Assembly (NCBI RefSeq): GCF_900099695.1
Contig: NZ_FNCY01000017.1
Coordinates: 1 to 64,000, forward strand
Direction: 5' to 3'
Length of the DNA: 64,000 bases
Source of the DNA: Propionivibrio dicarboxylicus
GTDB taxonomy: Bacteria; Pseudomonadota; Gammaproteobacteria; Burkholderiales; Rhodocyclaceae
In this document: piece after piece, positions 1 through 15,727 of the stretch
Numbering within the stretch: the first letter of the stretch is position 1
Layout: each line of letters begins with the position of its first letter
Notes under the pieces: generated by a model
What the model saw: the letters and a program-made list of their open reading frames with translations, nothing else
Databases searched by the model: none
Told to the model about the DNA's origin: nothing
Position numbers and translations under genes: made by a program

Positions 1-488
1 ACCGGCCCGACCGTCTCGCCGAAGGAGAGAAAGACCTCGTCCTGGATGAAGACGTTCTTGACGAAGCCCTGTTCGTCCTTGACCGCCGCGATCAGCGCCA
101 ACCCCGCGAGAATGCCCCGCGTCGCCAGCGTGACAATGAATTCAGGCAGCTCGAAGTAGGTGATGAAGAAGCCGTTCACCCAGCCGATCAGGCAGCCTCC
201 GGCCAGCGCGATCGGAATGTAGATATACGCCGGCAGTTGCGTGTAGGAAATGAAGTTGATGCAGACCATCGAGGTGATGGCCACCACGGCGCCGATCGAC
301 ATGTCGATCCCCGCCGTGATCAGCACCAGCGTGAAACCGATCGCGATGATCCCCGTCAGCGACGCCTCCTGCAACAGCGTCATGATGTTGTCCAGCGTCA
401 GGAACGTGGGCGTGGCTAGGGACAGGAGCGCCGAGATGAGCAGCAGCAACCCGATCAAGATGAGTCGTCGTATGGCACTGACCGACAC
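1..488 (-). CDS. Sugar ABC transporter permease (RbsC family), N-terminal part, cut by window edge
   Basis: Inner-membrane permease subunit of a ribose/galactose-type ABC importer. Only the first 162 codons lie in the window; the gene continues past the left edge. Hydrophobic segments begin near residue 8. The motif ITAGIDMSIGAVVAI near residue 65 corresponds to the GIDLSVG signature of RbsC-type permeases. I chose a GTG start at 488 because GGAGG lies 7 bases upstream and the reading frame stays open to position 1. It follows the binding-protein gene on the same strand, separated by a hairpin, so the two form one operon. The ATPase subunit is not in view and presumably lies further left. The substrate is inferred from context to be a sugar or lactone. 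Confidence 0.85.
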   Translation of the reverse strand, partial: MSVSAIRRLILIGLLLLISALLSLATPTFLTLDNIMTLLQEASLTGIIAIGFTLVLITAGIDMSIGAVVAITSMVCINFISYTQLPAYIYIPIALAGGCLIGWVNGFFITYFELPEFIVTLATRGILAGLALIAAVKDEQGFVKNVFIQDEVFLSFGETVGP

Positions 489-542
489 GATAAAACCTCC
501 GAACGATGCTTGGATTTCTGGGTGATACGAGGAGGGAAAACA

Positions 543-589
543 CTCCGGATGTTGGCAGTGACGGCGCCCGCGGGCGCCGTCATCCGGAG
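543..589 (-). terminator. Intergenic hairpin between binding protein and permease genes
   Basis: A perfect 24-bp palindrome at 559-582 (centre GCGCCCGCGGGCGC) is extended by an outer inverted repeat CTCCGGAT/ATCCGGAG at 543-550 and 582-589. There is no T-run. Hairpins at this place in binding-protein operons usually stabilise the upstream mRNA or lower readthrough into the permease gene; that role is inferred here. Confidence 0.6.
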
Positions 590-596
590 GCAGGTC

Positions 597-1541
597 TTAC
601 CAGCGGTCTTCAGCCTTGATCTGGGCAACCGTCGCCTTGGTCGCAGCGAACGGCGGCACGGTGATGATCTCGGTCTTGCCGCCCTTCTTCTTGGCGCCCG
701 AGAGCAGATCAAGCACATATTGCGCAGCGGTGGCGCCCTGGTTGTAGGCGTTGGTGTAGGCGGTGCCGGTGATCTTGCCTTGCTCGATCAGCGCCAGCGT
801 GCTCTTCTGCCCGTTGAAGCCCCAGATCTGGACCTTCGCCAGGCGACCGGCGGCTTCGGCGGCGATCATGGCGCCTTCGGCCATATTGTCATTGACGGCG
901 AAGACGGCATCCAGCTCCTTATTGACTTGCAGGAAGCTGTTCATGATCTCGATCGCCTTGTCCTTGTTCCAGGCCGCGTTCTGGGCGCCGACGATCTTGA
1001 TGCCGGGATAGTTCTTGGCCATCGCGTTGCGGAAACCCTTCTCGCGCTCGACGCCGGCCTGCGCACCCGGAGGCGATTGCAGGATGGCGACATTGCCCTT
1101 GCCACCGAGCGCCTTGCCGATGCTTTCGCCGACCATGGCGCCGGCACCTTCGTCGTCCATCGTCACGCAGGCAGCGTGCGGCAGCATCGTGTCGGTATTC
1201 AGCGTGATGACGTGAATGCCCTTGCCTTCGGCCTTCTTGACGCTGGCCGTCAGCGCGGCGGCATCGATCGGTTGCAAAATGATCGCGTTGTAACCCTGGT
1301 TGATGAAGTCGTCCATCATTGTCACCTGAATCTCGGCCTTCATCTGCGCGTCAAGCGACTGCAGACTGACATTCGGCTGATTTTTCACGGTCCGCTCGAT
1401 GCCCGCCTTCCAGGCTTGCGTCAGCGCCTGACCAACCGTGCTTGGCAGATAACCGATCTTGTAGCTCGTCTGTGCCTGCGCCGCGCCACCCGCCGTCACG
1501 AACAAGGCGGTCAAGATTGCCATCCATTTTGCTTTTGCCAT
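597..1541 (-). CDS. Sugar ABC transporter periplasmic substrate-binding protein (RbsB-like)
   Basis: 314-residue type I periplasmic binding protein that delivers a sugar-like ligand to the neighbouring permease. The N-terminus is a signal peptide: basic MAKAKWM, a hydrophobic core, and a probable cleavage after AQA near residue 24. The mature protein starts with YKIGYLPSTVGQ, a typical first strand of the RbsB/LsrB fold, and contains the family segment NQGYNAIILQPIDAAAL. The ATG at 1541 is chosen over an upstream GTG because AGGAGAGG precedes it and it places the signal peptide at the N-terminus. It is divergent from the ulaE/ulaF-like genes, with operator-like palindromes in the shared gap. 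The ligand is unknown; ascorbate or a related lactone or acid is a context-based guess. Confidence 0.9.
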   Translation of the reverse strand: MAKAKWMAILTALFVTAGGAAQAQTSYKIGYLPSTVGQALTQAWKAGIERTVKNQPNVSLQSLDAQMKAEIQVTMMDDFINQGYNAIILQPIDAAALTASVKKAEGKGIHVITLNTDTMLPHAACVTMDDEGAGAMVGESIGKALGGKGNVAILQSPPGAQAGVEREKGFRNAMAKNYPGIKIVGAQNAAWNKDKAIEIMNSFLQVNKELDAVFAVNDNMAEGAMIAAEAAGRLAKVQIWGFNGQKSTLALIEQGKITGTAYTNAYNQGATAAQYVLDLLSGAKKKGGKTEIITVPPFAATKATVAQIKAEDRW

Positions 1542-1580
1542 GTTGCCTCTCCTGATTGTTTGCCGATTAAGAACCACAAC

Positions 1581-1593
1581 GATCATTATGATC
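1581..1593. promoter_or_regulatory. Operator-like palindrome GATCATTATGATC
   Basis: Perfect 6-bp inverted repeat (GATCAT, 1-nt spacer, ATGATC) 40 bases upstream of the binding-protein gene. A close relative is found at 1759-1771 in the same gap, and others lie at 13385-13402 and 14554-14576. I infer a binding site for the DeoR-type repressor encoded at 11011-11811. Confidence 0.5.
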
Positions 1594-1758
1594 ACTTATG
1601 GAACCATTCTATAGTCAACGTGTCGCCTTTTGCAAGAAATATTTGATGAAATAATTTCCTTTAAAAATCATTTGATTGCAGACACAATTCGCCAGCCCTA
1701 CGGCATAAGCACACATCAAGCCCGACGCGGCAAACGACGCAAAACTTCTCTTTTTAAC

Positions 1759-1771
1759 CATCATAACGATC
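1759..1771 (-). promoter_or_regulatory. Operator-like site GATCGTTATGATG (read on the minus strand)
   Basis: On the minus strand this matches 12 of 13 positions of the pattern GATCRTTWTGATC that describes the site at 1581-1593 and the one at 13385-13397. It lies about 80 bases upstream of the UlaE-like start. It is probably a second DeoR repressor site in the divergent promoter region. Confidence 0.45.
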
Positions 1772-1849
1772 ACTTTGCGCTTTTCGCAGTTTACAATTGA
1801 CCAAAAAACCACGTACACTCCCACCCCACCCCGTATCGAAAGGCGGCCC

Positions 1850-2704
1850 ATGGACAATCCGGTCGGTATTTACGAAAAAGCCCTTCCCAAACACTTGAGC
1901 TGGTCCGAGCGCTTTGCTGCGGCAAGGAACGCCGGTTACGACTTTCTCGAACTCTCGGTCGATGAGACGCCCGAACGCATGGCGCGCCTCGACTGGTCGC
2001 TCGCCGAGCGGCTCGATTTCTTCCGCCAATCGCGCGAGGCCGGCATCCCGGTGCCAAGCATGTGCCTCTCGGGCCATCGCAAGATCCCCTTCGGCAGCGC
2101 CGACCCGGCGATCCGCAAACAGGCCGCCGACTTCATGGAAAAAGCGATCCGCTTCGCCTGCGACACAGGCATCCGCGTCATCCAGTTGGCCGGCTACGAT
2201 GTTTACTATGAGCCGAGCACGCGCGCATCGCGCGAACGCTATATCGAAGGCATGGAAAAGGCGCTCGAGGTCGCGGCGCAGCATCAGGTCATGCTCGGCC
2301 TCGAAATCATGGACACGCCGTTCCAGAACTCGATCACCCGCTATCTGAAGCTCAAGGAGCGCCTGCCCTCGCCATGGTTCAAGGTCTATCCCGACCTCGG
2401 CAACCTGACCGCCTGGGGCAACGACGTCGCCCACGAACTTGAAATCGGCATCGACCACATCGTCGGCGTGCACGTCAAGGAAACGAAGGCCGTCGGCCCC
2501 GACTTCCCCGGTGCCTTCCGCGACATTCCCTTCGGCGAGGGCTGCGTCGACTTCGTGCATTGTTTCCAGACATTGAAGTCGCTGCGCTATGCCGGCCCGT
2601 TCCTGATCGAAATGTGGACCGAGAAAGCCGCCGACCCGCTCGCCGAAATCGCCAAGGCCCGCCAGTGGGTCGGCGAACGTCTCACTCAAGGAGGATATGA
2701 ATAA
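1850..2704 (+). CDS. ulaE: L-ribulose/L-xylulose-5-phosphate 3-epimerase, UlaE/SgbU family
   Basis: Cytoplasmic TIM-barrel epimerase that would interconvert L-xylulose 5-phosphate and L-ribulose 5-phosphate. The 284-residue length equals E. coli UlaE. The metal-ligand segments of the family can be picked out: [10 protein letters not shown] (Glu), [12 protein letters not shown] (Asp), [10 protein letters not shown] (His) and FLIEMWTE (Glu). The start [13 protein letters not shown] aligns with the family N-terminus and has AAAGG upstream; the longer open frame from 1775 is rejected. It overlaps the next gene by one base (TAATG), so the two are translationally coupled. Together with the ulaF- and ulaG-like genes it points to ascorbate-type or L-xylulose catabolism. 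Confidence 0.88.
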
Positions 2705-3408
2705 TGCTTGAACAACTGAAACAGGAAGTGCTCGAGGCCAACCTCGACCTGCCCAAGCTCGGCCTCGTCGACTTCACCTGGGGCAATGTCAGCGGCAAGG
2801 ACGCCGATACCGGCGCCATCGTCATCAAGCCAAGCGGCGTTCCCTACGAGACGATGAAGGTCGAGGACATGGTCGTCGTCGACCGCGACGGCAAGCGCAT
2901 CGAAGGCACGCTCAACCCCTCCTCCGACCTCGCTACCCACGTCGAGTTGTATCGCCATTTCCCGACACTCGGCGGCATCGTGCACACGCACTCGACCTGG
3001 GCGACCGTCTGGGCACAAGCCTGCCGTGGCATCCCGGCCTTCGGCACGACCCACGCCGACTATTTCTACGGCGAAATCCCCTGCACTGCGGTGCTCACCG
3101 AAGCCGAGGTCAAGGAACACTACGAAGCGCAGACCGGCATCGCCATCGTCGAACGGTTCAAGGCCGGCAAGCTCGATCCCAAGGACGTGCCGGCCGTGCT
3201 CGTCGCCAATCACGGCCCCTTCGCCTGGGGCAAGACCGCGCACGACGCCGTGCATAATGCCGCCGTGCTCGAACTGACGGCGCGCATGGCGCTGCTCAGC
3301 CTGCAGCTGGCGCCGAACCTGCCGCCGATGCCGCAATACCTGCTCGACAAGCACTACCTGCGCAAGCACGGCCCCGGCGCCTACTACGGGCAAAGCGGCG
3401 GTAAATAA
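2704..3408 (+). CDS. ulaF: L-ribulose-5-phosphate 4-epimerase, UlaF/AraD family
   Basis: Class II aldolase-like zinc enzyme converting L-ribulose 5-phosphate to D-xylulose 5-phosphate, which enters the pentose phosphate pathway. 234 residues against about 228-231 in the family. Zinc ligands are visible in [10 protein letters not shown] (two His) and ANHGPFAWG (third His). THADYF carries the catalytic Asp, and a C-terminal tyrosine pair sits in GAYYGQ. A strong AAGGAGGA site lies inside the end of the upstream gene. It is the second gene of a two-gene operon, ended by the hairpin at 3416-3453. UlaF, AraD and SgbE cannot be separated from sequence alone; context favours UlaF. Confidence 0.88.
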
Positions 3409-3415
3409 GACGCAG

Positions 3416-3453
3416 CGGCGGCATCGCCGCCCCCGATCCCGGCGATGCCGCCG
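3416..3453. terminator. Hairpin between convergent genes
   Basis: Perfect 14-bp stem CGGCGGCATCGCCG/CGGCGATGCCGCCG with a 10-nt loop, lying between the stops of the UlaF-like gene (+) and the P-loop protein gene (-). No U-tract is evident on either side. It probably acts as a bidirectional terminator or mRNA end stabiliser. Confidence 0.55.
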
Positions 3454-3456
3454 GGA

Positions 3457-4380
3457 TCAGCCGACGATCTTCAGGATGCGGTCGAAACCCGTTTCCTGCT
3501 GCGCTTCACCGACCATACCGACCAGCAGGTACTCCTGGTCGATCGGATTGAAGCGAAACTCGGGCAATAACCGGAACGACTCGATCAGCCCCGTCGACGG
3601 CACGTGCGTGCGCACACCGGTGCATTCGATGACCTCGTCGCCGATGCGGATGTGATCCTCGTCGGCCGGCGTGATCGGCAGATCGCGGGCGATGTATTCG
3701 GCGACATCGGCCTCCAGCTTCTTGAAATCGATTTCCGGCGGATGCGTGAAGCCGATGACAAAGCCATGCTTGACGTCGGAGTGCAGCCCGGGAATCGGGA
3801 TACCGTAATCGCGCGACAGGATCATGCTGGTGATGTCCTCGGCCGAGTGCGCCATCTTGCGGTACTTGACGGTGCGATAGACGATCTCCTTGATCGCCGC
3901 CGGATCGGGACCGAAAACATTGGGCCGCGCGACAACGACCTCCTCGCCGATGCCGAGGATGATCTGGGCGTTGAAATTGAGGTGCGGATAGAGCAGGTCG
4001 AAATGCTCGACGATGACGCGACGACGATGGCGGATCGCCTCGGTCACCACCTCGGCGATTTCCCAGAGCTGGTGGAAAGCCTGCTCGTAACGCACGTCGA
4101 TGTGATAGGTGTGCGGCCCGAAACGGTCCGACTCGTTGAAGTCGAAGATCGGCGCCGTGCGCAGGTTGATGCCCTCGTCATCATTGGTGAGTTCGAGGCC
4201 GGGAAACAGGCCGCGAATCAGCGTCGACTTGCCGGCCCCCTCGGCGCCGATGATGCCGACCAGGAGATCGGTCGGAAACAGATGGCGCTCGGCGATGTCC
4301 CGCCCCAGCCGGTACAGGCGCAAACGCCCCCGCGGCGCGTAATAGACCGCGTAGATCAGGGTTTCGTGCATCACCACCAT
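3457..4380 (-). CDS. P-loop protein of the methylaspartate cluster (possible alanyl-tRNA-synthetase additional-domain family)
   Basis: About 307 residues, of unknown function. A Walker A motif GAEGAGKST lies near residue 46, so nucleotide binding is likely. The C-terminal half (EVIECTGVRTHVPSTGL and following) has no obvious NTPase motif; from memory, databases place similar proteins under 'alanine-tRNA synthetase second additional domain', which I cannot verify here. Two ATGs compete: 4386 has its AAGG only a few bases away, while 4380 has AAGGAAG at better spacing, so 4380 is preferred. It lies downstream of the DUF4387 gene on the same strand after a gap of about 100 bases and probably ends the glutamate fermentation operon. 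A role as chaperone or activator of the enzymes upstream is only a guess. Confidence 0.7.
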   Translation of the reverse strand: MVVMHETLIYAVYYAPRGRLRLYRLGRDIAERHLFPTDLLVGIIGAEGAGKSTLIRGLFPGLELTNDDEGINLRTAPIFDFNESDRFGPHTYHIDVRYEQAFHQLWEIAEVVTEAIRHRRRVIVEHFDLLYPHLNFNAQIILGIGEEVVVARPNVFGPDPAAIKEIVYRTVKYRKMAHSAEDITSMILSRDYGIPIPGLHSDVKHGFVIGFTHPPEIDFKKLEADVAEYIARDLPITPADEDHIRIGDEVIECTGVRTHVPSTGLIESFRLLPEFRFNPIDQEYLLVGMVGEAQQETGFDRILKIVG

Positions 4381-4482
4381 GGCCATCTTCCTTCTCTCGG
4401 AAATGCGTCAGCGGACCGAATCATGCCATGACAGCAGGGCACCCGAAACAAAGGGCACCCCGCCTCACAGCCCTCCTCGAAA

Positions 4483-4797
4483 TTAGAGATCGAAGGTCAT
4501 GCCAAGCAAGGGCGCGTGCTGCTGCGCGCCATACACGTCGGAATCGCCGGGCGCGCCCGAAACGATGCGGCGCGGCATGACGACCTTGACGGCATTGGCC
4601 GGTTCGAACCAGACGATGTTGCGGATCTCGTCGAGTCCGACGCCATAGGCCTTTGCGACGCGCTCCGGCGAAAACTGACCGCTGGCGCGCAGCGCGTCGA
4701 ACAGCGCGCGATCCTTGAGCATGACGTCGAGCACGAGTTCATAAGGCCCGGAGTTCTTGGAGCGAACGACGCGGGCGATGTCGAGAATATTTTTCAT
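4483..4797 (-). CDS. DUF4387 family protein
   Basis: Small cytoplasmic protein of 104 residues, with the family-like run MKNILDIARVVRSKNSGPYE at the N-terminus and IVWFEPANAVKVVMPRR in the middle. The ATG at 4797 is chosen because AAGGATAAGCTC precedes it; an upstream in-frame start at 4830 would overlap the AtuA-like gene by 8 bases. The partner immediately upstream is the AtuA/DUF1446 protein, and in acyclic-terpene-type clusters these two families are usually encoded together, sometimes fused. Function is unknown. Its position in the glutamate mutase/methylaspartate operon suggests a subunit acting on mesaconate, citramalate or a CoA derivative. Confidence 0.8.
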   Translation of the reverse strand: MKNILDIARVVRSKNSGPYELVLDVMLKDRALFDALRASGQFSPERVAKAYGVGLDEIRNIVWFEPANAVKVVMPRRIVSGAPGDSDVYGAQQHAPLLGMTFDL

Positions 4798-4822
4798 GAG
4801 CTTATCCTTGTCTCCAACGGGC

Positions 4823-6175
4823 TCAGCCAACCTGTTCCATGCGGAACGGGAACGCCGTCGCCGGGTCGATCGGCATCAGGTGGTAAAGGGCGAATTCGTA
4901 GACGGTGCCAGCCTGCACATCCGACGGCGAGAACGGGAAGGCGAGATTGCCGGCGGTGGCGACGCGACCCGGATAGCCATAGTGCAGAAGCGTCGAGCGC
5001 GTCAGCGAACAGACCGTATTGGCCTGCTCCTGCGTGTCGGCGAGCACTTCGATGACGATGCCAAGCTCATGCGCCGTCGCACCCTTCAGCGGCTCCAGTC
5101 CCCCCATGACACCGTTCTTGCCGTAGATATGGAAGAACACCTGCGCCTTGGCCTCGTTGCCGAGGATGACACCGACGCGCGCCTTGACTGCATCGATGAT
5201 CGAATCGATCGTCGAGATCATGATCGGATCGCGCGTGCCGGCGATCGAGATCGTGCGGAAGCCGACCGGCGCCGAGCCTTCGAGCTTGACCTTGTACGGA
5301 GTATGCACATGCTTCGAGCCGCGCACTTCGACAGTGCCGTCACCGAGTTCGGTGAAGGTGCACTCGGTCAGGTCGAGGATACCGCCCGGTCCGGGCAGGT
5401 GATAAGGATCGGACTTCTCGTAGAGCGTGTGCGCCGCTGCCGATTCGGCGGTGAACTTGCGGTCGTCGGAAAGCGCTTTCAGCACAAAGGAATCCTCGCG
5501 CAGGATGCCCATCGCACAGTCCGAACCCGAACCGGGCGAAGCGGCGATGGCGGCGCATTCGAGGATCTTGCCGCAGTGCAGCGCCAGGCCTTCGTCATAG
5601 CCCTTCATGATCGGCAGCGCCGCGAAACAAGCCGGGTCGTAACCGCGACCGGCGAGCACCACCTGCGCACCGGCTTCGAGCGCACGGATGAAGGGCTCGA
5701 CGCCGGCCTGGGCGACGATGTAGGGGCTGGCATCGATGGCTTCATGCGTCAGCGGCGGCACCAGGTCGAGCGGCTCGATGTCACCGGCATCGAGCGCGGC
5801 ATGGATCGTCGCCTTGTCGACGTCGGTCGGGATCACCGCCATCTTGAAGCTCAGCTTTTCTTCCTTGGCGATTTCGAGAATGATCTCGCGGCACCATTCG
5901 AGGTGCGGCGCCGCGCCCGAACCGCCGGCCGTGCCGACGACGACCGGGATGCCGGCTTTGACGCCGTGCGTGATCATGTAGCGCAGGTCGCGTTTGACAC
6001 CGGTGCGATCGGTGAAGGCCTTGCCGGCGCCGAGATAGTACGGGCCGGGATCGGTCGAGCCGCCGTCGACGGCGATGAGGTCGGGCTTTTCGGCCATGCC
6101 GCGCAGGAAGCTGGCTTCCGGGAAGCCATAGCCAAGGATTGCGGTCGGGGAAAGAATCTTGAATTCAGGTTTCAT
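4823..6175 (-). CDS. AtuA-like (DUF1446) protein of the methylaspartate operon
   Basis: 450-residue cytoplasmic protein of the acyclic terpene utilisation AtuA family. Family-like blocks include ILGYGFPEASF and LIAVDGGSTDPGPYYLG at the N-terminus and VVLAGRGYDPACFAALP near residue 220. No biochemical reaction is firmly established for the family. It starts 2 bases before the stop of methylaspartate ammonia-lyase and is followed after 25 bases by its DUF4387 partner. The operon makes mesaconate but has no recognisable mesaconase (fumarase-like or aconitase-like), so this pair is a candidate for the hydration step or the one after it. That is inference. Confidence 0.85.
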   Translation of the reverse strand: MKPEFKILSPTAILGYGFPEASFLRGMAEKPDLIAVDGGSTDPGPYYLGAGKAFTDRTGVKRDLRYMITHGVKAGIPVVVGTAGGSGAAPHLEWCREIILEIAKEEKLSFKMAVIPTDVDKATIHAALDAGDIEPLDLVPPLTHEAIDASPYIVAQAGVEPFIRALEAGAQVVLAGRGYDPACFAALPIMKGYDEGLALHCGKILECAAIAASPGSGSDCAMGILREDSFVLKALSDDRKFTAESAAAHTLYEKSDPYHLPGPGGILDLTECTFTELGDGTVEVRGSKHVHTPYKVKLEGSAPVGFRTISIAGTRDPIMISTIDSIIDAVKARVGVILGNEAKAQVFFHIYGKNGVMGGLEPLKGATAHELGIVIEVLADTQEQANTVCSLTRSTLLHYGYPGRVATAGNLAFPFSPSDVQAGTVYEFALYHLMPIDPATAFPFRMEQVG

Positions 6176-6177
6176 GC

Positions 6178-7422
6178 TTAGCTTCTCCGTGCTTTAAGCA
6201 GCGCCAGCGTGCGATGCATTTCGTTATAGACGATGTTCATTCCTTCATCGAAGCCCATGCCGGGCTTGACCAGCATGCGCATCGGCCGCGCCGCGAGGGC
6301 AAGGTGCACACAGGCGCGGGCCGAGACGTCGGTTTCGTTGCAGGTACCGCCCTGATAGGCTTCCATGCCATTGGCGTTACAGTAGAGCACCGACTCGACG
6401 ATGTTGTGGATGCCGCCGAGGTCGGGCGTCTTGATCTGCGCCATGTGGCAGCACTGCGCGTCGGTGAACTCGACGATGTCCTCGTAGGTGTTGCACCATT
6501 CGTCGGCGACGATCTTGACGTTCGAACCGAGTTGTTTGAGGCGCCGTGTGATTTTGCCCAGTTCCTCGATCTGCGCGTCCTTGCTGCCGGCATCGACCGG
6601 GCCTTCGATGTAGAGGTCGAGCGGGCCGGCGGCCTTTTCGAGGCCGGCGACATACTCGGCGACGCGTGCGGCGTCCTGGTCGAAGATCAGGCCGATCGTG
6701 CCATAGACGTCGATATGCAAGGAGGGTCTGTAGTCCGGCCGCGTGCGCAGCTTCTCGACGCGGGCGACGAGCCAGCGGATGTATTCCTCGAGCTTCTCGC
6801 CCTTGTATCCGAGCTTGTCGGGCACATTGTTGATCAGCCCGTGCGGCAGCGCATCGACGCCCTTGAGCAGCATCTTGTCGACGGCGGCATAGCGGTCGTC
6901 GCCGCTCTGGCCGAACAGCGGCACCGGTGCAGCGACGAAAGGCAGTTGGTATTCATCGAGAATGACCTCGGCCTTGGTGATGCTGCGCGCTTGCGCCGTC
7001 GCGTCGAGCAAGGCCTGCGTCAGGCCGTAGCGGATCGCCGTATGCAGGCGCTTGCCGTCGATCTCGAGCGCGTCGAAATAGCGCGCATTGGGCAGGAAAG
7101 TCGCCACCGAACGTCCTTCGAGCAGCGGCTTGATATGCTTTTCGAGAAATGGCACGAAGTTCGCGCCAAGGAACAGCGGATCGCGGCCGCCAGCGCCCGA
7201 GTACTGCACCGCCGCGCAATCGCCGACGGCGACCGTGCCGTTGTCGAGCACGAGCAGCACCGAGACGCATTCGCCGGCCTGGCGGATGTCGCGGAAGCCG
7301 TCGGTGACGGCCTTGCCGAGATAGACGAAGCCGTCCTGCCCGGCGCCGTTCTTGATCGCCTTCTGGTCGTCGAAATAGAAAGAGGAATAGCCCGATACGA
7401 ACAGGGCCTGGGTAATTTTCAT
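6178..7422 (-). CDS. mal: Methylaspartate ammonia-lyase
   Basis: Deaminates (2S,3S)-3-methylaspartate to mesaconate, the second committed step of glutamate fermentation by the methylaspartate route. 414 residues, matching the roughly 413-residue clostridial enzyme. It belongs to the enolase superfamily: LYIEGPVDAGSKDAQ and KIVADEWCNTYEDI carry acidic metal ligands, and MAQIKTPDLGGIHNI carries the catalytic lysine region. The start MKITQALFVSGYSSFYF matches the family N-terminus; the much longer open frame up to 7995 is a shadow of glmE. The ATG overlaps the glmE stop by 4 bases (ATGA), so the genes are coupled. Confidence 0.95.
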   Translation of the reverse strand: MKITQALFVSGYSSFYFDDQKAIKNGAGQDGFVYLGKAVTDGFRDIRQAGECVSVLLVLDNGTVAVGDCAAVQYSGAGGRDPLFLGANFVPFLEKHIKPLLEGRSVATFLPNARYFDALEIDGKRLHTAIRYGLTQALLDATAQARSITKAEVILDEYQLPFVAAPVPLFGQSGDDRYAAVDKMLLKGVDALPHGLINNVPDKLGYKGEKLEEYIRWLVARVEKLRTRPDYRPSLHIDVYGTIGLIFDQDAARVAEYVAGLEKAAGPLDLYIEGPVDAGSKDAQIEELGKITRRLKQLGSNVKIVADEWCNTYEDIVEFTDAQCCHMAQIKTPDLGGIHNIVESVLYCNANGMEAYQGGTCNETDVSARACVHLALAARPMRMLVKPGMGFDEGMNIVYNEMHRTLALLKARRS

Positions 7423-8864
7423 CGCGGTCTCCCGATCAGTTTGCTCTTGGATATGGCATAGATGTCGTCCACCACCATCTGGAAGACGGGCGCACGGTTT
7501 TCCGCCTTGGCGCGCTCGGCGATCTTCTCCTTGTGGTAGGCAAGGACGTCGTCCGGCAGCGGCACGCGACCGACTTCGAAGATACGCACGGCGCCCTCGT
7601 TGTCGCGCACCGGCATCAGCTTGCCGGCATTGCAGGTGGCGGGTGCGAAGGGCACGTCGAGCACGCCGGCCTCGAAGGCGCGCACGGCGCCGACGGCAAC
7701 GTCGCCGTTGCCGAGTTCGAAGACCTTGGCCATCACCGCACGCACTTCGCGCTTGATCAGCTCGACTTCGAGATCGACCACCGGACTCGCCGGGAAGACC
7801 TGTTCGCGCACCATGTTGAGCAGTTGCGTCGTCGCATCGAGGCCCTGCTTGTTGGCTTCCTTGGTCGGGATGCCGGAAGCTTCGTGCGGCGTCTTGACGA
7901 TCACTTTGGTCGCGCCCGAGAGCGCCGCCATAGCGCTGCCCCAGGCGATCACCGAGAAGGCCATCGCCTCGTTCTCGGGGAAACCGCCCATCCATTGGTG
8001 GAAGACCGTCGATAACGCATAGTCCTCATAGCCGGCGGCGCGGAAGAACTCGTGCCCGAGTTCGCGCAGCGAGCGGATCGCGGCGATGTCCTGAACGATA
8101 TTGCCGGCCTGTCCGTATCCCAGCGTAATACACTTGCAGCCCTGTTCAAGTGCCAGCAGGCCCTCGATGATGGCGACGCAGTGCGAGACGAAGGGCGGCA
8201 CCAGCGTGCCCGAGAGCGGCCCGAAGGGTTCGCGGTTGATGCGCACACCACGCTCCTCGTACAGGCCGACGAGGCGGTCGCAGTACTGCCAGTGACGGAT
8301 CGAACGCTCGAGCGGCACCTTCTTGGCATAAGGAATGTTGTACGAGATGCCGCCGCCCTCGTAGGCGGTGAAACCGGCTGCCAGCGTGATCTCGCCGAGC
8401 AGGCGGGCATCCGGTGTGCCGTGGCGCACCTGCACCGGTTTCTTCAGCGCCTCGACGACGCGACGGCACTCGGCCAGGCCATGATTGACTGCCGGAAAGC
8501 CGTTGAGCAGCGAGGTTCCCGCCGCAAGCGAACGGGCGACGCCCTCGGCGGCCTTTTCGTAATGATTGAGACGCGTGTAGGCGTCGATCGTCGACGGCAG
8601 CAGGTCGCAGGAGGGCTCGAGGAACTGCAGCAGCTTGATATGCTCATCGACCAGCGCCACACCGGCGCGCGGCTGGCACAGCGTCTTGCCCTCGCGCTCG
8701 GCCTTGGCCAACGCACTGGAGAAGCGCTTGCTCTCGGGCAGCGCCAATTGGTAGCGGACGCCGTCCTCGAAGTCGACGCCCTGGCCGGTCGGCCAGGTGC
8801 GCATGACTTCTTCGCGTTCGGCCTGGAACGCTTCCATTGTCATTTTTTCGCTTTTCAATTTCAT
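7419..8864 (-). CDS. glmE: Methylaspartate (glutamate) mutase, epsilon subunit
   Basis: Large TIM-barrel subunit of adenosylcobalamin-dependent glutamate mutase, which rearranges L-glutamate to (2S,3S)-3-methylaspartate with the sigma subunit. 481 residues, close to the clostridial 483-485. Family segments visible include RHGTPDARLLGEIT, YEGGGISYNIPYAK and GSAMAALSGATKVIVKT. It lies 17 bases downstream of glmL and overlaps mal by 4 bases. The full length and continuous conservation argue for a functional enzyme. Confidence 0.96.
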   Translation of the reverse strand: MKLKSEKMTMEAFQAEREEVMRTWPTGQGVDFEDGVRYQLALPESKRFSSALAKAEREGKTLCQPRAGVALVDEHIKLLQFLEPSCDLLPSTIDAYTRLNHYEKAAEGVARSLAAGTSLLNGFPAVNHGLAECRRVVEALKKPVQVRHGTPDARLLGEITLAAGFTAYEGGGISYNIPYAKKVPLERSIRHWQYCDRLVGLYEERGVRINREPFGPLSGTLVPPFVSHCVAIIEGLLALEQGCKCITLGYGQAGNIVQDIAAIRSLRELGHEFFRAAGYEDYALSTVFHQWMGGFPENEAMAFSVIAWGSAMAALSGATKVIVKTPHEASGIPTKEANKQGLDATTQLLNMVREQVFPASPVVDLEVELIKREVRAVMAKVFELGNGDVAVGAVRAFEAGVLDVPFAPATCNAGKLMPVRDNEGAVRIFEVGRVPLPDDVLAYHKEKIAERAKAENRAPVFQMVVDDIYAISKSKLIGRPR

Positions 8865-8881
8865 TCAACAGACTCCTAAAG

Positions 8882-10246
8882 TCAATCTTGCAATAAGCGG
8901 ATGCCCGCCTGCGCGGCGGCTGCGGGGAAGGCGCGCGCGAGGTTGGCCAGCAACGGGAACAGGTAGTCCGCGTCGCGGTAATAGCTAAAGTGCTGCGGGA
9001 ACAGCACGAGGCGTCCGCGCGCATCGACGGCGTGCTGCGCGAACCACGGCGCCGGATCGAAATCGGCGGCACGTGCAAGCCAGCCGCCCGAACCGATGAC
9101 CCGCGCTACCTGGCGCAGATCGCGGCCGGTCTGGATCTTCATCTCGCCGTCCGGCGTGTAGATCGTCGCCAGGCGGCCGACATGACGACGGCACGCCTGC
9201 CCGACGCAGACGGCGGCCAGACGCGTATCGAGCGCCGCATCCTCGGGCGTCAGCGGCAGGAACTCGGGCTGCGCCACCACGCGTTCGGCATAGCAGCGCA
9301 AGGCTTCGGCGGCGTCGCCGAACTCCGGCTCGCCGGCTTCGACCGTCGTCCTGGCCGACACGCGCATGCCGAGATCCCCCTCGACGGTGCGCTTCACTTC
9401 CGGTTCGGGCAGGCCGCGCAACACCGTGCCAAGATCGGGCATTTCCTGATGAACCGAGTACACATCGGTCGTCGCGCCGCCCATGTCGAAGAGCACGAAG
9501 CTATCCCATTCGGGCACATGCGCATGGATCGCCCGGGTGTATTCGAGCACGGCAAACGGCGTCGGCACCGGCGCCGCACCGGTCGCCGCCATGATGCGAT
9601 CGAGCCCTTTGCCCTTGACGATGGTTTCGAGAAAGATCGTGCGGATGGCGTCGCGCGCCGGGTCCGGGTTCGGCTCGTTGAAGACCGGCATCAGGTTGTC
9701 GACGATGCGCAGGCGCTTGCCAGCGAGCAGACGTCCGACCTCGGCAGCGACCGAGCGGTTGCCGGCATAGACGATCTCGCAATCGATCGACGAGCGGCCG
9801 ATCGCCTCGGCATTGGCGCGCACATAATTGGTATTGCCGCCGTCAGTGCCGCCGGCAAAGAGCAGGATGTCGGGCGGCGAGGCTTCGAGGCCGGCGATGT
9901 CGTCCTCGGTCAGGTGATAGGCGAAGACCTGCGACAGGCGCGCACCGGCCGACTGGGCGGCGATCTTGCCGATTTCCAGCGTCATTTCCGGCACGAGGCC
10001 GATGGCGGCGACGGCGAGCCCGCCTTTCGCCGACGACGAATACTGGAGGCTCAAGCGTCCGTCATGCAGTTGCGCGAGCGGATCGCCCTCGACGATATCG
10101 CCGAGCACGGCAAAAAAGCCGTCGGCGAGATTGACCACCGTGGTCGGCCGCGCCGCACGCGCCAGCAAGGACACCGTCTCGCCATCGACGCGGAAGGTCG
10201 CGCCTTTTGTCCAGGTCGACCCGATATCGAGACAGGCGACGATCAT
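8882..10246 (-). CDS. glmL: Glutamate mutase accessory protein MutL/GlmL
   Basis: 454-residue ASKHA-fold ATPase encoded between the sigma and epsilon subunits of glutamate mutase in most such clusters; it is thought to act as a chaperone or reactivator of the B12 enzyme. The phosphate-1 motif is [12 protein letters not shown] at residues 7-18 and a second nucleotide-binding motif is [14 protein letters not shown] near residue 250. The ATG overlaps the glmS stop by 4 bases. The name is shared with, but unrelated to, DNA mismatch-repair MutL. Confidence 0.93.
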
Positions 10247-10659
10247 GAGCGGGCTGCGACGTCCTGTTTGAGCAGGTTCGCCATTTCCTTCAGATCGACG
10301 GTCGGCGGAAAGACGCGGTCATAACCCATGCCGCGGAACAGCGTCTCGACTTCGGCGAAGTCACGCTTGCCGATAACGAGGTTGCCACCGACATAAAGCA
10401 CGACCTTGTCGAGACCGCGTTCGAGGCAGCGACCGCGCAGTCCGTCACAGTCGATTTCGCCGTGACCGTAGATCGATGCCACCAGGATTGCCTGCGCGCC
10501 GGTTTCGACGGCGGCATTGATGAACTCGTCCTGGCTGACCATGACGCCGAGATTGACGACCTTGATGCCCTCGGCCGTCAGTGCATGGTCGAGGATCTTG
10601 TTGCCGACGGCATGACAGTCGGAACCGATGACACCGAGAACGGCGGTAATGTCGCTCAT
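10243..10659 (-). CDS. glmS: Methylaspartate (glutamate) mutase, sigma subunit (B12-binding)
   Basis: 138-residue cobalamin-binding subunit of glutamate mutase, usual family length. The base-off/His-on cobalamin signature DxHxxG is present as SDCHAVG near residue 13, and GGNLVIGK near residue 90 fits the nucleotide-loop glycine motif. It is the first gene of the glmS-glmL-glmE-mal-AtuA-DUF4387 operon. The ribosome-binding site is weak: the nearest AAAGG is about 12 bases from the ATG. Function requires adenosylcobalamin, but I find no cobalamin riboswitch in the leader. Confidence 0.96.
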
Positions 10660-11010: not shown

Positions 11011-11811
11011 TCAAGCCTCTTCCGGCACCCGCACGACCGACAATCCGGCCTCTTCGAGTTCCTGGCAGAACGAGACCGGCGTCAGCCAGTCGGTGACGAT
11101 GACGTCGATGCGCGCCAGCGGACAGGTGAGGAAGCTCGAGACGCAATTCATCTTGGTGTGATCGGCGACGACGATGACCTTGCCGCCGGAGTTCTCGATC
11201 ATCGCCTTGTTGACGCTCGTCTCCTGATGCACGGCGGTCGTGCAGCCCTTGCGGATACTGACGCCATTGATGCCGAGCACGGTCACGCTCGAGAAGATGC
11301 TGTGCAGACCGGCGATCGTCAGATCGCCGACCAGCGACTTCGACTGGGCGCGATAGTCGCCGCCAAGCAGGATGAGCTCAAGCTGCGGATCGAGATCGAG
11401 TCCCAGGCAGGCGGCGTTGTTCGTCACCACGCGCAGCTTCTTGCCGTGGAGATGACGAATGACTTCCAGCGTCGTCGAGCCGGCATTGATGAAGACCGTT
11501 TCGTTCTCGTCAATCAACGAGGCAACATAGCGGCCGATCAGCGCCTTTTCGCGCTTGGCGACGTGATCCTTGGCATCGAAAAACTCTTCCAGACGCAGCC
11601 CGGCGATCGACACGGCGCCGCCGCGCGTGCGTTCGAGGAATTTCTCGCCGGCGAGCGTATCGAGATCGCGTCGGATGGTGATCTTCGAGACGCCGAATTC
11701 GGTCGCCAACTCGTCGGCCGAAATCGACTGCCGCTGGTACAGCATTTCGAGAATTTTCTTGTGGCGATAATTGGAGATCGACGCGATCGATTGCTTGGCT
11801 GCCTGTTTCAT
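11011..11811 (-). CDS. DeoR-family transcriptional repressor
   Basis: 266 residues. The N-terminal winged helix-turn-helix covers residues 18-60, with ISADELATEFGVSKITIRRD as recognition region. The DeoR C-terminal sensor domain binds phosphorylated sugars in characterised members; family segments here are FINAGSTTLEVIRHL, LILLGGDYR and KVIVVADHTK. The ATG at 11811 is preceded by GGAAG. The gene lies 10 bases downstream of the FGGY kinase stop and is cotranscribed with it. Its likely targets are the GATC-containing palindromes at 1581, 1759, 13385 and 14554. E. coli UlaR is also a DeoR-family protein, which fits the ula-like genes, but orthology is not shown. Confidence 0.9.
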   Translation of the reverse strand: MKQAAKQSIASISNYRHKKILEMLYQRQSISADELATEFGVSKITIRRDLDTLAGEKFLERTRGGAVSIAGLRLEEFFDAKDHVAKREKALIGRYVASLIDENETVFINAGSTTLEVIRHLHGKKLRVVTNNAACLGLDLDPQLELILLGGDYRAQSKSLVGDLTIAGLHSIFSSVTVLGINGVSIRKGCTTAVHQETSVNKAMIENSGGKVIVVADHTKMNCVSSFLTCPLARIDVIVTDWLTPVSFCQELEEAGLSVVRVPEEA

Positions 11812-11821
11812 CTTCCGACCC

Positions 11822-13315
11822 TTATTCGAACAGTTCGCGCAACACCGGCGACGCCAGCGCCTGATAGAGCGCCTCCGAGCGCCGGCATTGCCGCTCGTAC
11901 AGCGCCCGCTGCGACGCGTCCGGACGATATTGCCGCGACGCCTCCGGTCGCGCCGCCCGCGCGAAGGCGGCAGGATAGCTGCTTTCCAGACCGACGGCCA
12001 CCGCCCCGGCAATCCAGGCCCCGAGCGAGGTCGCTTCGTTATTGGCAAAACGCTCGACCGGCCGGTCGAAGACGTCGCTCTGGATCTGGTTGAAGAGATC
12101 AGAACGCGCCAGTCCGCCCGAAACGCTGACCGAGTCGACGCAGCCGCACAGGCGCTCGACCAGCGACAAGCCACCTTTCATCTCGACGGCAATGCCTTCG
12201 AGAATCGCCCGCGCCATCTCGCCGCGCGTCGTGCTCAGCGTCAGATTGTAGAAGGCGCCGCGCGCCTGCGGATCCCAGTACGGCGCGCCACTGCCCTTGA
12301 AATGCGGCAAGAGCAGCAGCCCGTTGGCGCCGGCCGGCGCCGCCGCCGCCTCGGCATTGAGCGCGTCGAAGGAAGCATCGCCATAAAACGCGTCACGGCA
12401 CCAGCGGTAGATCGCGCCCGAGGTCAACACCGCCGCCTCAACGATATAGGCGCCCGGCACCGCCGAGGCATTGCAGGCCAGACGCATCGCCTCGTCGAAG
12501 ACCGGATGATCGGCATGACCGATCATGTAGGAACCGGTGCCGGTATTCGACACCGCCCGATGCGGCGAAAACAGCCCCAGCCCGAGCGCCGCGCACTGCT
12601 GGTCGCCGCCGGCCGACACCACGGGCAACCCCGCCGGCAGACCGGTCGCTGACGCCATTGCCGGCGTCAACCCGCCAACGATGGCACCCGGTGCGACGAG
12701 ATCGCAGAGCATCCGCCGCTCGACGCTGAAAAGGTCAAGCAAGGCATCGTCCCACTGTCGCGCCTTGAGATCGAAAAGATTGGTGCGGCTGCCAAAGGTG
12801 TGGTCGGTAACGTAGCGACCGCTGAGCAGATAGAGCACCCAGTCCTGGATGCCGATCATCTTGTGCGTGCGCTGCCAGAGCTCGGGCCGCTCACGCCGGA
12901 ACCACAACATCTTGAGCGCCGAGAACACCGGCGAGATCTTCAGGCCGGTCTTGCCGTAGACCAGCGCGTCGTTGTCCTGCATCGCCCGCGCCAGCTCGGC
13001 GGTACGCCGGTCCTGCCACATGATCGCCGGATGCAGCGGCACGCCGTCGGCATCGACCGGAATCACCGACGAACGCTGCGCCGTCACCGCGATGCCGGCC
13101 ACCGCGATACCGTCATCCCGTGCCGCAACGGCACAGGCCGCGAGCGAATCGGCAAGAATGCCGGCCCAGGCCTGCGGCGCCTGCTCGACCCGCCCGTCGT
13201 CGAAATACTCCGGCGCGTTGTCGCGCTGGTAAATATGCACGATGCGGCCGCCGCCATCATAAAGAATGGCGCGCATGCTCGTCGTACCGACGTCGACGGT
13301 GACGATCCCCTTCAT
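11822..13315 (-). CDS. FGGY-family carbohydrate kinase
   Basis: 497-residue cytoplasmic sugar kinase of the xylulokinase/glycerol kinase family. The N-terminal phosphate-binding motif is VTVDVGTTSMRAILYD, and the adenosine-side motif is SVSVSGGLARSDLFNQ near residue 400. AIMWQDRRTAELARA near residue 95 corresponds to the substrate-contacting stretch. The start at 13315 is preceded by GGGGGAAGA. It is the first gene of a kinase-repressor operon divergent from the FG-GAP and UlaG-like genes. No PTS genes are seen in this regulon, so this kinase is the best candidate to supply the phosphorylated substrate for UlaG. L-xylulose or L-ribulose kinase activity is the main alternative. Confidence 0.88.
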   Translation of the reverse strand: MKGIVTVDVGTTSMRAILYDGGGRIVHIYQRDNAPEYFDDGRVEQAPQAWAGILADSLAACAVAARDDGIAVAGIAVTAQRSSVIPVDADGVPLHPAIMWQDRRTAELARAMQDNDALVYGKTGLKISPVFSALKMLWFRRERPELWQRTHKMIGIQDWVLYLLSGRYVTDHTFGSRTNLFDLKARQWDDALLDLFSVERRMLCDLVAPGAIVGGLTPAMASATGLPAGLPVVSAGGDQQCAALGLGLFSPHRAVSNTGTGSYMIGHADHPVFDEAMRLACNASAVPGAYIVEAAVLTSGAIYRWCRDAFYGDASFDALNAEAAAAPAGANGLLLLPHFKGSGAPYWDPQARGAFYNLTLSTTRGEMARAILEGIAVEMKGGLSLVERLCGCVDSVSVSGGLARSDLFNQIQSDVFDRPVERFANNEATSLGAWIAGAVAVGLESSYPAAFARAARPEASRQYRPDASQRALYERQCRRSEALYQALASPVLRELFE

Positions 13316-13384
13316 TCTTCCCCCGGCTGACAAATTCCTCGCGCCATTCTAATGCCAAAGCCCCTGCCCGAAGCAAGCACTTTC

Positions 13385-13402
13385 GATCGTTTTGATCGTT
13401 TT
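13385..13402. promoter_or_regulatory. Tandem operator-like repeat, two copies of GATCGTTTT
   Basis: Two adjacent 9-bp direct repeats, with the first 13 bases also reading GATCGTTTTGATC. The site sits in the divergent gap between the FGGY kinase start (13315) and the FG-GAP protein start (13482). It matches the pattern found at 1581 and 1759, which suggests autoregulation by the DeoR repressor. Confidence 0.5.
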
Positions 13403-13481
13403 ATGTTTCATTACTTTCCTTGACAGGGTAAAATCAGAGCAAATTGTCGACGCATCACCACCCACTTCACGAGGCTCGCCC

Positions 13482-14519
13482 ATGAAAATCGAGAAACGCT
13501 TCCTCACCGAATTCAACCGCTGCTATGCCGCCAATCACCTCAGCGTCGACGCGCGCACGCGCATCCTGCTGGCGACCGAGGGCGAAGGCGCGTGCAAGGC
13601 CTGGACCGGCCCCGACTACAGCGAATCGCATAATGTCTGGGAAGGCCCCGGCGGCACCATGTCGATCGTGCCAATTCCCGGCACCAACGGCGAATTCCTG
13701 GCGGTGCAGAAGTTCTTCAAGATGTTCCAGTGGGAAGAAGCCAAGGTCGTGCACGTCAAGCCGCGCGCCGACGGCGGCTACGATGTCACCGACATCCTGG
13801 CGCTCCCTTACATCCACCGCTTCGATCTGCTGACGGTCGGCGGTCGCCACTATTTCATCGGTTGCACGCTGGCGACCAAAAAGGAATCCAAGGAAGACTG
13901 GTCGAACCCCGGCAAGATCTGGGTCGGCGAATATACCGGCCCCGGCCCGCTGCAGGTACGCGCACTCAAGGAAGGCCTGACGCAGAACCACGGCTACGAC
14001 CGCCTGACGGTGGACGGCCGCATGTCCGGACTCGTCACCTGCCGCGAGGGCGCCTTCGAGGTCACGCCGCCGCAGACGCCCGGCGCCGACTGGCAGGTTG
14101 AACAGTTCATGGACTGGCCGATCAGCGACATCTCGACGATCGACATCGACGGCGACGGCGAACTCGAATTCGCCACGATCGAACCCTTCCACGGCGAGTA
14201 TTTCCGCGTCTACAAGAAGATCGACGGCAAGTTCGTCCGCATCTTCGAGCACCCCGAAGTCACCGAGTTCTATCACGTCGTCGTCGGCGCCACGCTGGCC
14301 GGCACGCCGGTGTTCATCGGCGGCTGCCGCCGCGGCAAGCAACAGCTCTTCTACGTCAAGGCAAACCAGGCCGCGCCGCTCGCGCTCGAAGCCGTCGTCA
14401 TTGAAGAAGGCGTCGGACCGAGCAACGTGCATGTGATCAACGAAGCCGGCCGCGACATCATCGTCGCCGCCAACCGGGAAAAAGGCGAGGCCGCGCTCTA
14501 CTTCATCACCCCGGATTAA
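13482..14519 (+). CDS. FG-GAP/VCBS-like beta-propeller protein of unknown function
   Basis: 345 residues, without a signal peptide or membrane segment, so probably cytoplasmic. A calcium-loop-like motif STIDIDGDGELEFATIEPF near residue 220 and several repeated strands of the type 'v-v-g...-i-a-a-n' near the C-terminus suggest an FG-GAP-type beta-propeller. The ATG at 13482 has GAGG upstream. It is divergent from the FGGY kinase and followed after about 95 bases by the UlaG-like gene, all next to DeoR-type operators. It therefore probably takes part in the same sugar pathway, perhaps as a lactonase, isomerase or binding protein. I do not recognise a named family member. Confidence 0.75.
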   Translation: MKIEKRFLTEFNRCYAANHLSVDARTRILLATEGEGACKAWTGPDYSESHNVWEGPGGTMSIVPIPGTNGEFLAVQKFFKMFQWEEAKVVHVKPRADGGYDVTDILALPYIHRFDLLTVGGRHYFIGCTLATKKESKEDWSNPGKIWVGEYTGPGPLQVRALKEGLTQNHGYDRLTVDGRMSGLVTCREGAFEVTPPQTPGADWQVEQFMDWPISDISTIDIDGDGELEFATIEPFHGEYFRVYKKIDGKFVRIFEHPEVTEFYHVVVGATLAGTPVFIGGCRRGKQQLFYVKANQAAPLALEAVVIEEGVGPSNVHVINEAGRDIIVAANREKGEAALYFITPD

Positions 14520-14553
14520 AAGAACCAAGATGATCTTGCAAAAAGATAGTTGT

Positions 14554-14576
14554 GATCATATTATTGCAAAATGATC
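14554..14576. promoter_or_regulatory. Operator-like inverted repeat GATCAT-N11-ATGATC upstream of the UlaG-like gene
   Basis: Half-sites GATCAT (14554-14559) and ATGATC (14571-14576) are the same as those at 1581-1593 but 11 bases apart. A further TGATCTTGCAAAA/TTGCAAAATGATC partial repeat surrounds them. The site is 39 bases upstream of the UlaG-like ATG, fitting repressor control of a separate promoter for that gene. Confidence 0.45.
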
Positions 14577-14614
14577 GATCGATAAGATCAATATGAACAT
14601 TTAAGGAGAATCGC

Positions 14615-15679
14615 ATGGCAAAAGTGGACGAGATCACCAAGGAATCCTGGGTACTGAGCACGTTTCCGCAGTGGGGCACCTGGCTGAACGAGGAAATCGA
14701 GCGCGAAGTCGTCAAGCCCGGCACCTTCGCCATGTGGTGGCTGGCCTGCACCGGCATCTGGGTCAAGACCGACGGTAACACCAATATCTGTATCGACTTC
14801 TGGTGCGGCACCGGCAAGCGTTCGATGAAGAACCCGCTGATGGACCCGCATCACCAGATGGCGCGCATGAGCGGCTGCGTCGCGCTGCAACCCAACCTGC
14901 GCGTCTCGCCCTTCGTTCTCGATCCGTTCGCCATCAAGCAGATTGACGCTGTCATTTCGACGCACACCCACAACGATCACATCGACGTCAACGTTGCCGC
15001 CGCCGTGCTCAAGAACGTCGAAGCCAAGGTGCCGTTCATCGGTCCGAAGTCCTGCGCCGACCAATGGAAGAAGTGGGGCGTTCCCGCCGACCGCATCATC
15101 CAGGTCAAGCCGGGCGACGTCGTCAAGATCGGCGACATCGAACTCGTCGCGCTCGAATCCTTCGACCGCACGATGGCCATCACCCTGCCCAAGGAAGAGA
15201 TCGCCAAGAACAAGATGCCGGTCGACATGGACGAAGTGGCGGTGAACTACCTCGTCAAGACGCCGGGCGGCAACCTCTACCACAGCGGCGATTCGCACTA
15301 CTCGAACGGTTATGCCAAGCATGGCAACGAGTACAAGGTCGACGTCGCCCTCGGTTCCTACGGCGAGAATCCGCGCGGCATCACCGACAAGATGACTTCG
15401 TCGGACATCCTGCGCATGGCCGAGGCGCTCAATACCAAAGTCATCATCCCCTTCCACCATGACATCTGGTCGAACTTCATGGCCGATCCGATGGAAATCA
15501 CCATGCTCTGGAAGATGAAGAAGGATCGCCTCAAGTACGGCTTCAAGCCTTACATCTGGCAGGTCGGCGGCAAGTTCGTCTTCCCGGAAAACAAGGACGA
15601 CATGGAATTCCACTTCTACCGCGGCTTCGACGACGTGTTCACCAAGGACACCGACCTGCCCTTCCCGTCATTCCTGTAA
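14615..15679 (+). CDS. ulaG: L-ascorbate-6-phosphate lactonase-like metallo-hydrolase
   Basis: 354 residues, the same length as E. coli UlaG, which opens the lactone of L-ascorbate 6-phosphate to 3-keto-L-gulonate 6-phosphate. It has the metallo-beta-lactamase fold. The metal motif HxHxDH is [14 protein letters not shown] near residue 115, and further conserved histidines appear in [11 protein letters not shown] and [15 protein letters not shown] lies 7 bases before the ATG. A strong terminator follows. In E. coli the substrate is made by the UlaABC PTS; here the regulon has an ABC transporter and an FGGY kinase instead. A different phosphorylated lactone remains possible. Confidence 0.9.
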
Positions 15680-15704
15680 CGGTGGTCTCTTGAGGGATCT
15701 CGCA

Positions 15705-15727
15705 CCCCGCTCCGGCGGGGTTTTTTT
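15705..15727 (+). terminator. Rho-independent terminator after the UlaG-like gene
   Basis: Stem CCCCGC/GCGGGG with a 4-nt loop TCCG, followed directly by seven T residues. It lies 26 bases after the stop codon. Confidence 0.9.

Follow-up and report, generated by a model that had tools for sequence, protein, structure and literature searches.

How does a bacterium that carries the late genes of L-ascorbate breakdown make L-ascorbate 6-phosphate without the ascorbate phosphotransferase system (PTS), and which protein takes the place of the decarboxylase UlaD? The question is raised by one end of contig NZ_FNCY01000017.1 of Propionivibrio dicarboxylicus (assembly GCF_900099695.1), of which positions 1 to 64,000 were analysed (hereafter the window). 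Relatives of ulaE, ulaF and ulaG lie there near genes for an ATP-binding cassette (ABC) importer, an FGGY-family kinase, a DeoR-family regulator and a predicted beta-propeller that we call PROP. We propose, with a probability of about 0.7, that they encode an L-ascorbate pathway that needs no PTS and in which two proteins, the kinase and PROP, are non-orthologous replacements. The genes are the following:

1-488, minus strand: ABC sugar permease, cut by the contig end (Pfam BPD_transp_2)
597-1541, minus strand: periplasmic sugar-binding protein, RbsB type (Peripla_BP_4)
1850-2704, plus strand: ulaE, L-xylulose/L-ribulose-5-phosphate 3-epimerase (exceeds the cut-offs of three L-ribulose-5-phosphate 3-epimerase models)
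2704-3408, plus strand: ulaF, L-ribulose-5-phosphate 4-epimerase (exceeds PRK08193 and PRK12348, below the araD equivalog)
11011-11811, minus strand: DeoR-family regulator, candidate repressor (DeoRC, HTH_DeoR)
11822-13315, minus strand: FGGY kinase, candidate L-ascorbate kinase (FGGY_N 202.8 bits, FGGY_C 112.1 bits, above the Pfam cut-off)
13482-14519, plus strand: PROP, 345 amino acids, predicted beta-propeller (no Pfam or NCBIfam match; singled out by linkage and exclusion patterns)
14615-15679, plus strand: ulaG, putative L-ascorbate-6-phosphate lactonase (NF008688, 641.5 bits, cut-off 306)

The left block consists of the cut permease and the binding protein on one strand, followed by ulaE and ulaF on the other; in the right block, PROP and ulaG diverge from the regulator and kinase genes. 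A glutamate-mutase/methylaspartate cluster (3457-10659) separates the two. In the loci L004 and L009 (the latter from Propionivibrio soli SG131), ulaEF adjoin the DeoR-kinase-PROP-UlaG genes with no glutamate-mutase block in between, and the relative of the cut permease adjoins an RbsA-type ATPase, a second permease and a binding protein. The initial annotation had read the cluster as an ascorbate-type regulon with ABC uptake and a kinase instead of the PTS. Family models bear out its gene content (ulaE, ulaF and ulaG beside permease, binding protein, DeoR regulator and FGGY kinase), but it overlooked the PROP gene next to ulaG. It also suggested looking for an ABC ATPase and ulaD to the left of the window; the window starts where its contig of 93,127 bases starts, with no sequence further left, so that the permease gene is truncated and the ATPase falls beyond the contig end. 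The lactonase activity of UlaG is predicted from its sequence family. Among the models matched, the binding protein scores under all eight equivalog cut-offs, and the regulator, with 99 bits against the UlaR equivalog NF010034 (cut-off 244), can be placed in the DeoR family only.

We searched the whole genome (4.53 Mb, 44 contigs, 98.6% complete) for the missing functions. PTS ula genes elsewhere had been named beforehand as what would refute the replacement; the models for IIC-GAT (PF03611) and for the ascorbate PTS IIC (NF006919) both gave zero matches. UlaD had been reported missing from the window, and it was found nowhere in the genome either: the model of this 3-keto-L-gulonate-6-phosphate decarboxylase had zero matches, and the single match to the orotidine monophosphate (OMP) decarboxylase family was PyrF-like; a UlaD encoded at another place was rejected on these searches. 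When the genomes of 22 relatives were added, the family was represented by 18 proteins in 17 of the 23 genomes, and by none in 6. Sixteen of these proteins match pyrF_sub2. In genome G302, L043 is HxlA-like (130.7 bits, and 61.3 and 47.4 with two UlaD models), and L027 is by elimination a PyrF of the PRK00230 type.

What could replace the PTS? The window kinase scores 305 bits with the xylulokinase (XylB) model, below the cut-off of 380. It is 39-70% identical to kinases of other UlaG loci, and 24-31% to E. coli GlpK, LsrK, FucK, XylB, LyxK and AraB (25.5% to LyxK). In a tree built with 13 of the 25 UlaG-linked kinases, a branch with support 96/97 separated all 13 from the other sequences; they come from loci with PROP and from loci with UlaD, and cover both types of importer and three phyla. 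The kinases of two loci without UlaG, L120 and L139, cluster with LyxK (support 100/99), and the window kinase lies outside that clade. This tree omits AraB, whose very long branch joined the side of the 13 when it was included, and the tree program flagged the long E. coli branches. As LyxK-like kinases serve lactonase-free routes, the UlaG-linked clade most likely works upstream of the lactonase, on ascorbate. Ascorbate IIC was above cut-off in 9 of 41 genomes, namely none of the 25 whose locus includes this kinase and 9 of the remaining 16 (p = 3.3×10−5, uncorrected for kinship). Sequence comparison thus supports ABC import and an FGGY kinase in place of the PTS, by the kinase clade, the lack of PTS matches and the similarity of the UlaG proteins.

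This last similarity is high across uptake types: the window UlaG is 94% identical to that of L009, a kinase locus, 93% to that of L006, a PTS locus, and 72% to the E. coli protein. When 9 UlaG sequences of PTS loci were aligned with 12 of ABC and kinase loci, zero ungapped columns separated the groups. It is therefore unlikely that the substrate switches from phosphorylated to free ascorbate with the uptake type, and the UlaGs of both uptake types are likely to share one phosphorylated substrate.

Uptake and decarboxylase genes were found in all four pairings: PTS with UlaD (E. coli), ABC and kinase with UlaD (L121, L131, L133, L134), PTS with PROP (L006, L025, L055, L058, L059, L060, L062, L122), and ABC and kinase with PROP (the window, at least 13 of the PROP relatives, L061, L124). 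On a UlaG tree of 23 hand-picked sequences, the uptake type switches at least 5 times and the decarboxylase type at least once.

The recurrent linkage of PROP to these genes was seen in a scan that took a single genome for each species. It gave 23 PROP loci, 62-81% identical, mostly labelled betaproteobacteria or Proteobacteria, with one labelled Spirochaetes (L019) and one Mageeibacillus (L025). Many of them stop at contig ends; 18 hold the kinase, 18 UlaG, and 17 UlaE and/or UlaF. Importer genes of the RbsABC or MalEFGK type accompany the kinase in at least 13 of its 18 loci. L006 and L025 carry ascorbate PTS IIA, IIB and IIC with no kinase in view, and L017, L021 and L024 have neither kinase nor PTS in view. 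The L019 cluster is 76-80% identical to betaproteobacterial clusters in PROP, permease, binding protein and UlaE, and its GC content equals that of other stretches of its genome, a weak test of binning. The PROP profile, run against 399 genomes from the order to which the window belongs, matched only the window's own, and no plasmid record matched PROP.

Sampling the class of the L025 genome (Clostridia, 341 genomes), we found PROP alignment matches in 8 genomes and UlaG equivalog matches in the identical 8, with two of each in G431. The chance probability of this coincidence is 2.4×10−16 for independent genomes, which these are not. None of the 8 has a UlaD match. The gene order in L055, L058 and L059 is UlaG, IIA, IIC, IIB, PROP, UlaF, UlaE; compared with the E. 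coli order ulaABCDEF, PROP occupies the place of ulaD in these PTS operons. PROP lies between UlaE and UlaF in L060 and L062. L061 has an RbsABC-type importer and a kinase, L056 is a 3-kb contig, and L057 holds TctABC genes.

In the class of the L019 genome (Spirochaetes, a name taken from the label of L019; 148 genomes), UlaG was above cut-off in 12 genomes and below it in five more. UlaD exceeded its cut-off in 8, all within these 12, and eight further genomes gave weaker matches only; PROP matched in 13. Among the 12 UlaG genomes, seven have UlaD without PROP (G664, G678, G702, G707, G711, G734, G782), four have PROP without above-cut-off UlaD (G315, G669, G691, G761), one has both and none has neither. 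An overlap of one is the minimum possible with these totals (p = 0.010). The five PROP proteins of UlaG genomes score at least 246 bits, the other eight at most 187. An HRFD signature present in all 17 closer PROP sequences of the alignment is missing from all 6 of the low-scoring proteins that were aligned (G724 and G744, being partial, were left out), and these proteins of genomes without above-cut-off UlaG are probably paralogues.

No Pfam or NCBIfam model matched PROP, including PF00215 and NF009832 of the UlaD/KGPDC family, and a PDB search with the sequence alone returned nothing at E ≤ 1. The structure model (pLDDT 89.9) is a seven-bladed beta-propeller, as in aldos-2-ulose dehydratase-like propellers of the VCBS superfamily; PROP contains a DxDxDG motif, with no VCBS match from Pfam. 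Invariant His, Arg and Asp residues among the aligned PROPs point to an enzyme, and H112, H170, H237 and H265 would probably form a metal site, as judged by conservation. Aldos-2-ulose dehydratase is also the top match in VIA-align. Since this top rank differs from that of Foldseek, given below, the fold alone settles no function for PROP.

A few PROP relatives stand apart. The source of L004 carries a second PROP (L024, 5743-11032), 74% identical to the window's, near TRAP-type transporter and NAD-dependent epimerase/dehydratase family genes, with UlaE, UlaF and UlaG not in view. L129 (8954-15745) holds a distant PROP relative, an importer of the RbsABC type and a UlaG relative that shares 34% identity with the E. 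coli protein; this locus may serve the breakdown of a different lactone. In the PROP-UlaG locus L124, a gene of the MTTB (trimethylamine methyltransferase) family lies at 5928-7520 between importer and kinase. A match in G131 (E = 1.4×10−4) was rejected as a relative; it falls within a frame that resembles a gamma-glutamyltransferase.

The proposed pathway, in which all substrates, activities, the metal and the regulation are predictions, would run as follows. Unphosphorylated L-ascorbate would enter through the RbsABC-type importer, and the FGGY kinase would phosphorylate its C6 hydroxyl with ATP. UlaG would open the lactone, converting L-ascorbate 6-phosphate into 3-keto-L-gulonate 6-phosphate. 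PROP, which is unrelated to UlaD, would decarboxylate this beta-keto acid to L-xylulose 5-phosphate; a metal held by the four conserved histidines would probably polarise the C3 ketone and stabilise the enediolate. UlaE and then UlaF would lead to D-xylulose 5-phosphate. The two gene blocks would share a palindrome at which the DeoR protein represses them. With somewhat less assurance, we favour a broader reading: PROP would represent a new class of decarboxylase, in which a His-bound metal sits in the central channel of a beta-propeller, and would stand in for the UlaD/SgbH fold in Pseudomonadota, Bacillota and Spirochaetota. With this class and an L-ascorbate kinase that forms a separate FGGY clade, bacterial ascorbate catabolism would be built of exchangeable modules.

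Could the kinase instead act after lactone opening, UlaG taking free L-ascorbate and PROP decarboxylating the phosphorylated 3-keto-L-gulonate? Phosphorylation of 3-keto-L-gulonate has been suggested for LyxK, FGGY kinases take open-chain keto sugars, and LyxK-like kinases occur beside UlaE/UlaF in the UlaG-less loci L120 and L139. We regard this order as quite unlikely, because the window UlaG is so close to that of the PTS locus L006 and no column separates the 21 sequences, so that the substrate is probably phosphorylated in both, and because the UlaG-linked kinases form a clade distinct from LyxK. It is also unlikely, if a little less so, that PROP is an accessory protein such as a mutarotase, isomerase or regulator, while decarboxylation is spontaneous or due to a protein of another family encoded elsewhere. 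Beta-keto acids can lose CO2 unaided, G302 has its HxlA-like protein, and distant PROP relatives occur in 8 of the 136 genomes without above-cut-off UlaG; yet PROP substitutes for UlaD, the two coexisting in only 1 of the 12 Spirochaetes-class UlaG genomes and there at separate loci, it stands where SgbH would be expected in the UlaG-less L120, and its invariant residues suggest an enzyme. Least credible to us is a cluster for another lactone or sugar acid, for instance an ascorbate analogue, with different substrates for kinase, UlaG and PROP. The sub-cut-off scores of the binding protein and the varied transporters of the loci (RbsABC, MalEFGK, PTS, TctABC) would fit it, as would the 72% identity to E. 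coli UlaG, given that PMC3219644 cautions that the substrate may shift once UlaG identity falls below 80%. Against it, UlaG is far above the equivalog cut-off, the genomes of the eight PTS and PROP loci have an ascorbate PTS IIC above cut-off, and UlaE and UlaF indicate L-xylulose 5-phosphate.

Several observations weigh against the PTS-free pathway with PROP as decarboxylase. Foldseek puts human LGI1 first (E = 4.9×10−12) and aldos-2-ulose dehydratase only eighth, and the latter, although the best PDB profile match of PROP, is not significant (E = 0.32). G686 is the genome with both UlaD and PROP: its UlaD sits in the UlaG locus, and its PROP at L120 (6238-11412), which holds a 2-hydroxyacid dehydrogenase, a LyxK-like kinase, UlaF, PROP and UlaE, without UlaG, much like E. 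coli yia-sgb with PROP in the position of SgbH. G691 has, besides PROP, a KGPDC of 218 bits (cut-off 250) in a LyxK locus without UlaG. L057 (9526-16631) and L123 (129-5330) combine UlaG, PROP and TctABC-type genes, and no kinase or PTS is in view in either; the UlaGs of these two loci are a divergent pair. In L122, L123 and L124, at most one of UlaE and UlaF is in view. The HxlA-like protein of G302 might decarboxylate, the lack of UlaD in the 6 genomes without any OMP-decarboxylase match may reflect incompleteness, and the ATPase of the window's importer falls outside the contig.

Are the two blocks controlled together? Operator-like palindromes were found in their spacers:

1578-1596: binding protein/ulaE spacer, 2 mismatches to AACGATCANNATGATCGTT
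13382-13400: kinase/PROP spacer, 3 mismatches to AACGATCANNATGATCGTT
14584-14600: PROP/ulaG spacer, weak third copy, 3 mismatches to the 17-base core, alone at background level

The window would hold 0.12 matches by chance, a flattering figure as the consensus was derived from these spacers, and 15 sites match the 17-base core at up to 3 mismatches. L004 and L009 have the palindrome in both spacers (L004 at 5661, without mismatch, and at 9896; L009 at 9914). In a scan of 22 relatives (all but L025), 8 had no match, and L004, L005, L007, L009 and L022 each had one next to these genes that differs at no more than 2 positions. A looser pattern (32 matches, 8.1 expected) was not used. This distribution suggests that both blocks form one regulon in the window's nearer relatives.

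The intervening cluster (3457-10659) encodes GlmS, GlmL, GlmE, methylaspartate ammonia-lyase and an AtuA-like protein, and points to glutamate fermentation. It was rejected as a component of the system: glm matches occurred in 0 of 23 related loci at E ≤ 1×10−8, and at a looser limit one end of L016 showed a weak GlmS-like match (30%). It also encodes a 309 amino acid protein that resembles a P-loop NTPase and matches no Pfam model.

To our knowledge, decarboxylation of 3-keto-L-gulonate 6-phosphate is otherwise known only from the UlaD/OMP-decarboxylase fold. If the proposal is true, an unnamed protein family gains a function, an unrelated fold is added for the UlaD reaction, and an ascorbate kinase permits vitamin C use by PTS-free bacteria, in which model-based annotation sees two pathway steps as missing. 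In a search of the open-licence literature, subscription papers lying outside it, neither an ascorbate kinase, nor an ascorbate pathway with an FGGY kinase, nor a decarboxylase with a propeller fold was found described. PMC3219644, which surveyed the surroundings of ulaG in more than 100 genomes, reports the ulaABCDEF unit in all cases; its main text contains none of the words ABC, kinase and propeller. For Ralstonia eutropha H16, taken up below, PMC7873064 confirms a novel ascorbate pathway lacking the typical ascorbate genes.

Compared with known systems, the window shares with the E. coli ula regulon (ulaR, ulaG, ulaABCDEF) UlaG, UlaE, UlaF, a DeoR-type regulator and the intermediates expected from L-ascorbate 6-phosphate onward, but it lacks the PTS and UlaD, has an ABC importer, an FGGY kinase and PROP, and its DeoR protein is under the UlaR cut-off. 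With E. coli yia-sgb (LyxK, SgbH, SgbU, SgbE) it would share import of an unphosphorylated substrate, an FGGY kinase and then the epimerases; it differs in having UlaG and no reductase, PROP for SgbH and a kinase of another clade. The propeller domain of aldos-2-ulose dehydratase (PDB 4a7k) binds zinc. It is 12% identical to PROP, in a chain of 879 residues compared with 345, and that enzyme catalyses a dehydration/isomerisation, unlike the reaction proposed for PROP. Ralstonia eutropha H16, a betaproteobacterium, is said (Stack, in 2020) to use ascorbate without a PTS by means of a WD40-like enzyme, reportedly via 2,3-diketogulonate and L-lyxonate and without UlaG, UlaE or UlaF; what it would have in common with the window system is independence from the PTS for ascorbate.

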